Source: an uncultured Rhodospirillales bacterium (GTDB taxonomy: Bacteria; Pseudomonadota; Alphaproteobacteria; Rhodospirillales; CALINB01). From it: a stretch of DNA of 38,534 nt. The position numbers and the translations under genes are program-made. The notes beneath the pieces were generated by a model. That model worked only from the letters and a program-made list of their open reading frames with translations, was not told where the DNA came from and did not search any database. The DNA lies in NCBI GenBank assembly GCA_938045325.1, contig CALINB010000129.1, positions 1 to 38,534 on the forward strand, read 5' to 3'. Of this stretch, positions 25,793 to 38,534 are shown in pieces (the first letter of the stretch is position 1; every line of letters begins with the position of its first letter).

Positions 25793-25867
25793 TGGAGCGG
25801 GCGATGAGATTCGAACTCACGACTTCAACCTTGGCAAGGTTGCGCTCTACCCCTGAGCTACGCCCGC
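25793..25867 (-). tRNA. glyT: tRNA-Gly (anticodon GCC)
   Basis: Read on the reverse strand, the acceptor stem GCGGGCG pairs perfectly with CGCCCGC. The D arm contains TAGCTCAGGGGTAGAGC. The anticodon loop is TTGCCAA, giving anticodon GCC for glycine codons GGC and GGU. The T arm contains GTTCGAATC. The discriminator is T and the 3' CCA is encoded at 25793-25795. The structure is complete, and a T run follows at once. It stands alone, with no other tRNA in the window. Confidence 0.97.
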
Positions 25868-34902: not shown

Positions 34903-37413
34903 ATGGCGCGAACGATGAACAGGGCTGGATCCGGCGGTATTTTGCCAGACGGAACGATTGAATTTTTCAAGCGCCGCCTCAGCGAAGCAGGCGGCCTTGG
35001 ACTGATGGGCTTATCGCTTGCCCTTATCGCCGCGCTCGCAACGTTCTCGCCATCAGACCCATCCTTTAATACCGCAACAGCGGACTCTATACAAAATGTC
35101 CTCGGCCTGTTTGGTGCCTATACCGCCGATATTCTTCTGCAAACATTTGGGGTCGCTTGCTTGATTCCTTCGATCGTTTGTTTGGCCTGGGGTTGGAAAA
35201 TCATGACTCACAAACCAATCCATTTATTTTGGATGCGGTTCGTGCTTTTAGCCATCGCTGTTTTTAGCATCAGCACGGCATTAGCGGCGATGCCCATGCC
35301 GGACATGTGGCCGTTCGGTGTCGGCCTCGGTGGTGTCTTCGGCGGATTGTTGATGCCGAAATTGGTTTCGTTAACGCAACTTATTCATCCTGTCTTCAAC
35401 GACGTTGGTATCGGTGCCTTTATGATGATCATCGGTATCGCATCATTCTTCACCGCGTTGAACATCGCCTGGTCCGAATGGCATGCCGGCATGCACGGCG
35501 TGACGACAGGTGTTCAAAAGGGCATTCAGGGAAGTGTTCAGGGTATTTCGGCCTTAAGTGCCCATATCGGTGATCGTACCAATTTGTCATCGTATTCCAT
35601 TAAAGATACGATTGCTGCGCCGATCACGGGCATCTTTAAAAAGCCGTTGCGCTTTCTTTGGCCATTTAAAATTTCTTTTTCTGTTCAGCGCCGTGATGGC
35701 ACTGGCCGGCATGAACCGGTTTTCGGCGAGCAGGCGAACACTGATCTAGAAAACGTGCCGGCAAGCACAACCGCAGAATCAACGGCCGCCGTTAAGGCGA
35801 AGGCGCCGTCTGATTTGGTGGCCCCCATGCTGCAAAAAGTGAAAACCGGACGCCGCGAAGCCGAGGCCCGTCAAGGCAAGCTGAAATTATCCGGGCAGGA
35901 AGAACATCAAATTCCGCCGTTCGATTTGCTCGAAGCGCCCGACACGTCGGTAAAAAGCAGTCGGCTCAGCCAAGACGCCTTGCAGCAAAACGCTGTGATG
36001 CTTTCAAACGTGTTGGAAGAATTCGGCGTGCGTGGCGAAATCATCAAAGTCCGTCCCGGCCCCGTGGTCACGCTTTATGAACTTGAGCCCGCACCCGGCA
36101 CAAAAACATCCCGCGTCATCGGCTTAGCCGACGATATTGCACGCTCCATGAGCGCGGTTTCCGTGCGCGTCGCTGTCGTGCCGGGTCGCAACGCCATCGG
36201 TATCGAGCTACCGAATGTCGAGCGAGAAATGGTTTATTTGCGAGAAATCCTCGCCTCCGACTCCATGGACAAAGTTTCGGGCAAGCTCAACCTTGCGCTT
36301 GGTAAGGATATCGGCGGCAAACCCATCATCCCGGATCTGTCGCGCATGCCACATTTGCTGATCGCCGGCACAACGGGTTCCGGTAAATCGGTCGCGATCA
36401 ATACTATGATCTTGTCGCTGCTATATCAGCTGCCGCCGGATCAATGCAAAATGATCATGATCGATCCGAAGATGTTGGAGCTTTCCGTCTATGAAGGCAT
36501 TCCGCATTTGATCACACCGGTTGTCACGGAACCCGGCAAGGCCGTCATGGCGTTAAAATGGGCGGTCCGCGAAATGGAAGAGCGCTACCGGCTGATGTCA
36601 CACATCGGTGTTCGGAACGTTGCGGGCTACAACAAACGCATCGCCGAGGTGAAAAAGAAAGGCGAAGAGCTGACTCGCAAAGTGCAAACCGGGTTCGATG
36701 AAAACGGCAAGCCGGTGTTTGAAGAACAACCCTTGAGCATGGACCCGCTGCCGTTGATCGTCGTCATCGTCGACGAGATGGCCGACCTCATGCTGGTCGC
36801 GGGCAAGGATATTGAAGCAGCCGTTCAACGCCTAGCACAAATGGCGCGCGCCGCCGGTATTCATCTCATCATGGCGACGCAACGCCCATCGGTCGATGTG
36901 ATCACCGGCACGATTAAGGCGAACTTCCCGACACGGATCAGCTTCCAGGTCACCTCGAAAATCGACAGCCGCACCATTTTGGGCGAACAAGGTGCCGAAC
37001 AACTGCTCGGCCAAGGCGACATGCTGTTTATGGAAGGCGGCGGGCGCATCACTCGGGTACACGGCCCATTCGTTTCGGATGAAGAGGTCGAGCACATCGT
37101 CAACTTCCTGAAAGAACAAGGCGAGCCGACGTATCTTGAAGAAATTACCGCCGAGGCTCCCGAGGCCGCAACCGGCCTGCCGGGCAGCACAAGTGAGAAA
37201 TCCGGCGATGAGCTTTATGACGAAGCTGTCGCCCTGGTTGCACGGGAAAACAAAGCCTCGACAAGTTTCATTCAGCGCCATCTGCAAATCGGTTATAATC
37301 GAGCCGCGCGCATTATCGAGCGTATGGAAAAGGAAGGTGTTGTCAGTGAAGCAAACCGCGTGGGGCGCCGCGAAGTTCTTATCGGTCAAGTCGGCGAACT
37401 GGTTTCGCCTTAA
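34903..37413 (+). CDS. ftsK: DNA translocase FtsK
   Basis: An 836-residue septal DNA pump that clears the terminus region and activates XerCD recombination at division. The N-terminal domain has four transmembrane helices within about residues 30-200. A shortened linker (about 220-350) is followed by the alpha domain (MLSNVLEEFGVRGEIIKVRP) and the RecA-like motor, with Walker A GTTGSGKS at 489-496 and Walker B VVIVDEMADLM near 620. The C-terminal winged-helix gamma domain from about residue 768 (ARENKASTSFIQRHLQIGYN) recognises KOPS sequences. The length matches alphaproteobacterial FtsK and is far shorter than the 1329 residues of E. coli. The frame runs into the lolA-like gene, which appears to start inside it. 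Confidence 0.97.
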   Translation: MARTMNRAGSGGILPDGTIEFFKRRLSEAGGLGLMGLSLALIAALATFSPSDPSFNTATADSIQNVLGLFGAYTADILLQTFGVACLIPSIVCLAWGWKIMTHKPIHLFWMRFVLLAIAVFSISTALAAMPMPDMWPFGVGLGGVFGGLLMPKLVSLTQLIHPVFNDVGIGAFMMIIGIASFFTALNIAWSEWHAGMHGVTTGVQKGIQGSVQGISALSAHIGDRTNLSSYSIKDTIAAPITGIFKKPLRFLWPFKISFSVQRRDGTGRHEPVFGEQANTDLENVPASTTAESTAAVKAKAPSDLVAPMLQKVKTGRREAEARQGKLKLSGQEEHQIPPFDLLEAPDTSVKSSRLSQDALQQNAVMLSNVLEEFGVRGEIIKVRPGPVVTLYELEPAPGTKTSRVIGLADDIARSMSAVSVRVAVVPGRNAIGIELPNVEREMVYLREILASDSMDKVSGKLNLALGKDIGGKPIIPDLSRMPHLLIAGTTGSGKSVAINTMILSLLYQLPPDQCKMIMIDPKMLELSVYEGIPHLITPVVTEPGKAVMALKWAVREMEERYRLMSHIGVRNVAGYNKRIAEVKKKGEELTRKVQTGFDENGKPVFEEQPLSMDPLPLIVVIVDEMADLMLVAGKDIEAAVQRLAQMARAAGIHLIMATQRPSVDVITGTIKANFPTRISFQVTSKIDSRTILGEQGAEQLLGQGDMLFMEGGGRITRVHGPFVSDEEVEHIVNFLKEQGEPTYLEEITAEAPEAATGLPGSTSEKSGDELYDEAVALVARENKASTSFIQRHLQIGYNRAARIIERMEKEGVVSEANRVGRREVLIGQVGELVSP

Positions 37414-38083
37414 CCGAATTTTTCCATCATTCCGACGGATTGCGATCGGCTTACGGGCCGGATTCTTGTTTGTGTGCTTGACACTTTTAAGCCTGTCCGC
37501 CGCGCAGGCAGATCAACTGGCCAAGCTGACATCACAAGACCGCGCCGACATCAAGCGTATTGAGGCCTACCTCAATGAGCTTTCGACCGTGGCGGCTCGA
37601 TTCCTGCAGGTGTCGTCCAGCGGCGGTTATGCCGAGGGGCGCCTCTATATTTCCCGGCCCGGCAAAATGCGCATCGATTACGCACCGCCTTCAAAGATTG
37701 AAATCGTCGCCGACGGCAAATCGCTGATCTATCACGATAAGGAACTCGAGCAGATTTCCCATATCGATCTCGCCGATACCCCGGCAAATATCCTGCTGCA
37801 AAAGAACATCCGCTTCACCCACGGCCCGTTACGGGTCCGAAATGTCACCCGCAGCCCAGGCATTGTGCGCCTTAGCGTGTTTAAGAAGGAAGATCCCGAA
37901 GAAGGCGTCGTGACGCTGGTATTCAGCGATAAACCGCTGACGTTAAAGAAATGGGTCATCACGGACGCCCAGGGCGTGGTCACGACAGTCTCCCTGCTGC
38001 GCTCGCGCTTTAGCGTGCCGATCGATCCGAAAATATTCAAATTCGAGGATCCTGATTACGAGCTTTACCGCGACGACACGTAA
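37346..38083 (+). CDS. lolA: LolA-like outer-membrane lipoprotein carrier protein
   Basis: A periplasmic carrier of the LolA/LolB fold that ferries lipoproteins from LolCDE to the outer membrane. Visible features are FLQVSSSGGYAEGRLYISRPGKMRIDY, typical of the first strands of LolA (shown only in part: FLQVSSSGGYAEG, RPGKMRIDY), the segment KIEIVADGKSLIYHD, and C-terminal LSVFKKEDPEEGVVTLVFSD. The hydrophobic stretch GFLFVCLTLLSLSAAQA before DQ is the signal peptide core. I chose GTG 37346, preceded by AAGGAAGG, which gives 245 residues and a basic N-region, overlapping ftsK by 68 bases. A TTG at 37466 would cut the basic part off. ftsK-lolA order is common in Alphaproteobacteria. The start is uncertain, the family fairly sure. 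Confidence 0.87.
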   Translation: MKQTAWGAAKFLSVKSANWFRLNRIFPSFRRIAIGLRAGFLFVCLTLLSLSAAQADQLAKLTSQDRADIKRIEAYLNELSTVAARFLQVSSSGGYAEGRLYISRPGKMRIDYAPPSKIEIVADGKSLIYHDKELEQISHIDLADTPANILLQKNIRFTHGPLRVRNVTRSPGIVRLSVFKKEDPEEGVVTLVFSDKPLTLKKWVITDAQGVVTTVSLLRSRFSVPIDPKIFKFEDPDYELYRDDT

Positions 38084-38104
38084 TCCTTTTTCGCCACCAA
38101 AAAA

Positions 38105-38110
38105 TATAAT
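38105..38110 (+). promoter_or_regulatory. Consensus -10 box after lolA
   Basis: A perfect TATAAT, 21 bases after the lolA stop. No good -35 box lies at 16-18 bases upstream. Transcription would start near 38117 and run into the hairpin-rich stretch, not into any gene on this strand. Confidence 0.4.
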
Positions 38111-38116
38111 GACAAA

Positions 38117-38365
38117 AACGGTGCTGACTATGCCGTTGAAAAATTTTGGGATTCCGTCGACACATGCAGTTGCCGCATGGCAGATGTGTATTGGACCCCT
38201 GGACAAATGACAAAGGCCACACCATTTGTTCTTCAGATGGAATGGTCCGGTTCGCACCGGATTCGGACCACTCAGGGATGGATTTTAACAATCCAGACCC
38301 GAAGCTCTGTCAAAAGAGCACCGAGCGCCCGGCCCTCCCCCCTAGCCGGGCGCGCGTCATTTAGG
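38117..38365 (+). ncRNA. Candidate structured non-coding RNA, unidentified
   Basis: The 322 bases between lolA and the leftward gene at 38406 hold no convincing protein. They form a run of local hairpins: 38117-38121/38133-38137; ACACAT 38160-38165 with ATGTGT 38184-38189, enclosing TGCC/GGCA; a 9-bp stem 38201-38209/38223-38231 with one G-U pair and one unpaired T; TGGTCCG 38243-38249 with CGGACCA 38264-38270; TGGATT 38279-38284 with AATCCA 38290-38295; GCTCT 38304-38308 with AGAGC 38315-38319; and a 9-bp GC-rich stem 38325-38333/38345-38353. It does not match tRNA, tmRNA, RNase P or SRP RNA motifs that I know. It could also be a structured 3' UTR of lolA. Exact ends are guesses. Confidence 0.4.
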
Positions 38366-38405
38366 CGCTAGACATTTGTTTTTAAAAGAAAAAATTTGAG
38401 TAAAT

Positions 38406-38534
38406 TTATTCCGCAAGAACAACGATATCCATCGGCGTGTTTACCCCGCCTACCGCGCGCCGAAACAACGTTCGGTGGTGCGGTTTCGCCTCATAACCCT
38501 GCTGTTCGGCAATGGCGTACGTTTTCGCGGTGGC
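38406..38534 (-). CDS. Unidentified protein, C-terminal 42 residues only (5' end outside window)
   Basis: Read leftward from the window edge, a frame is open for 42 codons to a TAA at 38406-38408. The residues include TAKTYAIAEQQGYEA and end VNTPMDIVVLAE. Codon use is like the rest of the window, with GC-rich third positions, which supports a real gene. I do not recognise the family. It converges on the lolA-like gene, and no clear terminator hairpin with a T run lies just beyond its stop on this strand. Confidence 0.55.
   Translation of the reverse strand, partial: ATAKTYAIAEQQGYEAKPHHRTLFRRAVGGVNTPMDIVVLAE

Follow-up and report, generated by a model that had tools for sequence, protein, structure and literature searches.

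The stretch of DNA discussed here, which we call the window, is 38,534 nt long and was taken from a 2.5-Mb draft genome, the sole representative of its family among the comparison genomes. Our subject is the region 3' of lolA (38084–38405). Many relatives have an OmpR-type response regulator converging on this region from the other side; the window has a different gene there, and the final 42 residues of its product gave no match in Pfam, NCBIfam or PHROG. Neither frame of 38084–38405 matches a known protein family, which agrees with an earlier note on this DNA that had seen no plausible protein there. The sole Rfam match in the window at the curated threshold is a tRNA gene (25796–25867, − strand). 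The features to which we refer are these, with hairpins numbered H0 to H3 and set beside the stem-loops (SL) of RusT, a Caulobacter RNA described below:

34903–37413: ftsK, upstream of lolA (Pfam FtsK, 5.6e-73)
37499–38083, + strand: lolA (Pfam LolA, 5.1e-24; stop codon 38081–38083), the segment compared with relatives
38105–38110, + strand: TATAAT with no matching −35, unlikely as the RNA's promoter
38163–38188, + strand: conserved upstream box CATGCAGTTGCCGCATGGCAGATGTG, a predicted transcription-factor site present as a motif in relatives, with TGCA-N6-GCAT at 38165–38178 (about −70 to −57)
38199–38204, + strand: predicted −35, CTGGAC (family consensus CTTG..), from the relatives' motif, with a 17-nt spacer
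38222–38227, + strand: predicted −10, CCATTT (family consensus C[CT]ATNT), from the relatives' motif
38235–38361, + strand: predicted small RNA of about 127 nt, its start placed from the −10 and its end from H3 (fold −59.9 kcal/mol, four hairpins)
38243–38270, + strand: hairpin H0 (RusT SL1 position), TGGTCCGG..TCGGACCA, from the fold and compensatory changes in relatives
38268–38364, + strand: match to model R2 (52.2 bits, E 3.8e-8 across the whole genome)
38275–38299, + strand: hairpin H1 (RusT SL2 position), loop TTAAC, from the alignment, model match and fold
38300–38323, + strand: hairpin H2 (RusT SL3 position), from the alignment, model match and fold
38325–38353, + strand: hairpin H3, a terminator-like 9-bp stem with loop CCTCCCCCCTA, from the sequence and alignment
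38406–38534, − strand: 3' end of the convergent gene (42 aa in the window)

The elements on which the earlier note had built its case are all present in the sequence: the TATAAT; the 9-bp GC stem of H3 (GCGCCCGGC/GCCGGGCGC at 38325–38333/38345–38353); and a GGTCC (38244–38248) with two possible partners, GGACC at 38193–38197 and, as TGGTCCG/CGGACCA, the arms 38243–38249/38264–38270. The strong structure that it described is equally real. The + strand of 38084–38405 folds at −106 kcal/mol, well beyond shuffled sequence (z −4.67; 0 of 100 shuffles equally good), and the − strand folds less well (z −2.95).

Relatives of LolA were identified within the order, some of them fetched by name from Rhodospirillales, and the regions 3' of lolA were compared. 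A DNA similarity search against 40 relatives matched nothing to the window RNA, because the comparison set contains no close relative. What many relatives do have in common 3' of lolA is a hairpin array: a first hairpin such as GGATGG-TTCCCCTG-CCATCC, a short second hairpin, and GCGCCCGGY-..CCCCCC..-RCCGGGCGC followed by T. Of 317 genomes examined from the order, 224 match a seed model (R1) built from eight such arrays, in a training set that included the window. The earlier note had called for an alignment of relatives downstream of lolA, and such an alignment, of 99 copies, reveals covariation: 20 of 23 pairs have changed on both sides in ways that preserve pairing, 96% of cells are paired, and the covariation score is 0.425, versus 0.202 when shuffled and at most 0.115 when slid. 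A further model (R2) was made from 77 relatives with the window left out; these had been collected through matches to R1, which included the window, so the R2 test is nearly, but not fully, independent. The next-best R2 match in the window genome, after that listed above, reaches 27.7 bits. Two weak matches there, L167:1092-1190 on contig C350 and L166/L204 on C127 (27.7 and 22.9 bits), are terminator-like hairpins with C6–C7 loops followed by U-runs, and may be further C-rich-loop RNAs or plain terminators.

In a sample of the class, R2 matches 36 of 190 genomes with an E of at most 0.001. Across 249 genomes sampled from the phylum, matches outside the alphaproteobacteria number just three, none above 36.5 bits; the noise level was therefore set there, and class-level hits weaker than about 38 bits were set aside except where lolA is adjacent. 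Among the 23 loci fetched from outside the order, 12 have lolA nearby, in some cases followed by xth, and the order lolA–RNA–xth recurs in other orders of the class (e.g. locus L188). In six alphaproteobacterial loci (L190, L191, L196, L198, L199 and L201) another conserved hairpin takes the place of the 5' hairpin; its loop holds seven or eight consecutive C (for example GCGTTGCCCCCCCGCTTGC) and looks like a third C-rich loop. One genome, G105, has two copies of lolA, and 3' of each lies a strongly matching copy of the RNA (L056 and G105:C115:6437-6529; 88.7 and 83.7 bits), reflecting either duplication or a mixed assembly.

The predicted RNA has a median length of 120 nt in relatives. Their H0 carries a GCAA-type loop, and compensatory changes occur in three of its four pairs. 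C-rich loops are the hallmark of H1 and H3: runs of at least three C occupy the H1 loop in 74 of the 77 relatives, and runs of at least four the H3 loop in 76, whereas only 4 of the 77 have a run of at least three in H2. The window copy diverges from this pattern: H1, with loop TTAAC, has lost the C-run, and H3 keeps CCTCCCCCC. In most relatives U-runs come after H3, but the window has GCGTCATTT there, a poor U-run, and the 3' end of the window RNA is therefore uncertain.

Upstream of the core, the relatives share two further elements. These emerged from a motif search of 94 upstream regions from which the lolA codons had been removed; a motif obtained from regions still holding those codons was the LolA C-terminus. 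One element is a box, caTgc-N7-gCatggC-G-NN-aTgc, that begins about 100 nt ahead of the core. The other, a motif of width 34, is a −35/−10 pair, cTtG..-N17-C[CT]AtnT, that ends about 36 nt ahead of it. Both lie at a nearly fixed distance, with log-likelihoods 4 to 6 times those of shuffled sequence. TGC-N7-GCA occurs in 42 of the 94 regions versus 1.2 expected, and the box is retained in copies of the RNA that are unlinked to lolA (e.g. L101 and L105). With its −10 at 38222–38227, the window RNA is predicted to start near 38235. The TATAAT that the earlier note had taken for a promoter has no partner −35 on the + strand, and the conserved −10 is found some 115 bases further downstream. In Sinorhizobium meliloti, LsrB binds TGCA-N6-GCAT upstream of nfeR1, at −72 to −57 (PMC10746234), and motif and position together suggest that the window box is the site of a LysR-type regulator. 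Chance alone would yield TGCA-N6-GCAT about two times in a stretch of the window's length, and so the weight of the box comes from its position and conservation.

Known RNA families offer partial likenesses. The earlier note had proposed a covariance search of Rfam, and at gathering level this was empty for the window RNA and for 20 relatives. Three matches fall below threshold (6C, anti-hemB and alpha-r14), all of them on 3' hairpins with C-rich loops. Anti-hemB (Burkholderia RNA 7, RF02837) has the lowest E of the three (0.014) and a similar terminator-like GC stem with a C-rich loop; its score, however, is 21.4 bits against a cut-off of 49.5, its alignment is restricted to the H3 region, and membership was rejected. 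6C RNA (RF01066), a family of other bacteria, resembles the window RNA in its two hairpins, of which one carries six consecutive C in the loop, and was rejected at 23 bits against a cut-off of 47. CC2171 (RF01867) matches in 84 of 385 genomes, and hence is no marker of Caulobacter.

The closest counterpart is RusT (CCNA_R0199) of Caulobacter crescentus, an Hfq-bound RNA of 118 nt encoded on lolA's strand between lolA and xth (PMC11005374). RusT has four stem-loops, of which the second contains the seed (nt 45–57) and the fourth is the terminator; it represses outer-membrane transporters, as shown in Caulobacter by loop mutation and compensation, is tied to iron starvation, and is reported under NtrX (PMC11005374). 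Its authors report homologs in Caulobacteraceae only (PMC11005374), and in the literature searched we found no report of it in orders beyond that of the Caulobacteraceae. The window RNA, likewise, lies directly downstream of lolA on the same strand, and has four predicted hairpins, the last terminator-like, albeit with a weak U-run, within a comparable length (about 120–127 nt). In relatives, the H1 loop lies at roughly the same distance from the start as the SL2 seed of RusT. This second-hairpin loop is C-rich in nearly all of them, as counted above, but the window has lost the run. The two differ in other respects, too: RusT is followed by xth, whereas the window has the convergent gene and no xth, a matter of context that we treat as not essential to the RNA; and a TGC-N7-GCA box lies upstream here, whereas RusT is reported under NtrX. 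Hfq binds RusT, and the window genome has an hfq gene (109.6 bits). By locus and anatomy, we take the window RNA to be of the RusT type. The earlier note's description of the RNA as undescribed is thus correct in so far as it is absent from Rfam, but overlooks an RNA in Caulobacter with the same locus and build.

That the locus encodes a conserved regulatory small RNA some 125 bases long, standing alone 3' of lolA and served by a promoter of its own, is very probable. The main competing explanation is that the hairpins are merely the 3' UTR and terminator of lolA, guarding the end of the mRNA, stopping transcription and perhaps being cut to yield a 3'-derived small RNA. In most genomes the RNA does lie 90–350 nt after lolA on the same strand, and H3 is terminator-like, with U-runs after it in most relatives. 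Among 90 genomes for which both are listed, 72 have the RNA no more than 400 nt past lolA and on its strand, 5 have it one gene further on, and 13 have it elsewhere, some of these possibly owing to split contigs; among the 96 fetched loci, 81 have lolA on the RNA's strand and upstream of it, at a median of 154 nt. Copies complete with upstream box and promoter stand away from lolA, however, in seven genomes (G122, G149, G153, G158, G160, G161 and G313), or one gene further on, in the five just counted, and separation of the RNA from lolA in several genomes argues that it is not a lolA 3' UTR. The promoter motifs, moreover, are kept at their nearly fixed distance, and terminators have no need of conserved C-rich loops. 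We consider this explanation improbable. The earlier note had left the choice between a stand-alone small RNA and a structured lolA 3' UTR; the former is upheld by covariation in 77–99 relatives, the match to the held-out model, the conserved promoter elements and the unlinked copies, and the latter is not favored.

Two other explanations carry much less weight. Membership in alpha-r14 (the NfeR1/cuckoo RNAs, RF02344, which repress mRNAs through anti-Shine-Dalgarno loops of CCUCCUCCC) is suggested by C-rich loops on several hairpins, an alphaproteobacterial sigma70 promoter, a TGCA-N6-GCAT box at the same distance (−72 to −57) and the weak Rfam match. That match, however, scores 17.5 bits against a gathering score of 58.8, which already refutes membership at Rfam's threshold. 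CCUCCUCCC, present in three hairpin loops of those RNAs, is in no loop of the window RNA; alpha-r14 has no match in the window genome; R2 reaches at most 26.9 bits on ar14-like loci; and these occupy another locus, lolA being within the fetched flanks of none of the nine. We regard membership as very unlikely. The remaining proposal, less likely still, is the two-state GGTCC switch of the earlier note, a cis-acting switch or attenuator. Both pairings can indeed be drawn, but the arm at 38193–38197 lies in the promoter, upstream of the start that conservation indicates, and would therefore be absent from the RNA. Nor does a gene follow on the + strand, and the alternative pairing falls outside the conserved core.

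We consider it likely, then, that the locus as a whole encodes a RusT-type small RNA that acts in trans, with a sigma70-type promoter of its own between lolA and the next gene. What we infer of its transcription, start and end, regulator, Hfq binding and targets, from the sequence, its conservation and covariation, synteny, the upstream elements and the hfq gene, is as follows. The sigma70-type promoter would drive the RNA under an activator or repressor bound to the palindromic TGC-N7-GCA box some 60–70 bases upstream of the start; our best guess is a LysR-type factor such as LsrB/OxyR. The transcript would fold into four hairpins, ending at the GC-rich H3. The C-rich loops that it exposes, those of both H1 and H3 across the family but chiefly that of H3 in the window species, would, assisted by Hfq, pair with the G-rich ribosome-binding regions of its target mRNAs and lower their translation. 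By the Caulobacter precedent, targets might be outer-membrane transporters, and the cue iron starvation. Only one TonB-dependent receptor was detected in the window's draft genome, however, and so the main target class of RusT can hardly be the main one here; the targets must, in part, differ. Complementarity of the H3 loop to the receptor gene amounts to −19.6 kcal/mol, a level reached by 1.3% of all stretches, and among window genes the best start-region site lies inside, or at the end of, an upstream gene.

RusT might be a branch of an ancient small RNA of the alphaproteobacteria that has stayed next to lolA in several orders and carries a pair of C-rich seeds (in the second and terminator loops) and a LysR-linked palindromic box; the window lineage would have dropped the first seed and come to rely on the terminator loop. 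To us, the case for this history is evenly balanced. Reports of RusT are confined to Caulobacteraceae, and the family described here spans most genomes of a large order together with further alphaproteobacteria. It is missing from Rfam and, if confirmed, its model could be used for annotation. The RNA would then rank among the widely kept small RNAs of the class, and whether control of the envelope or of metals through this RNA is ancestral would become testable.
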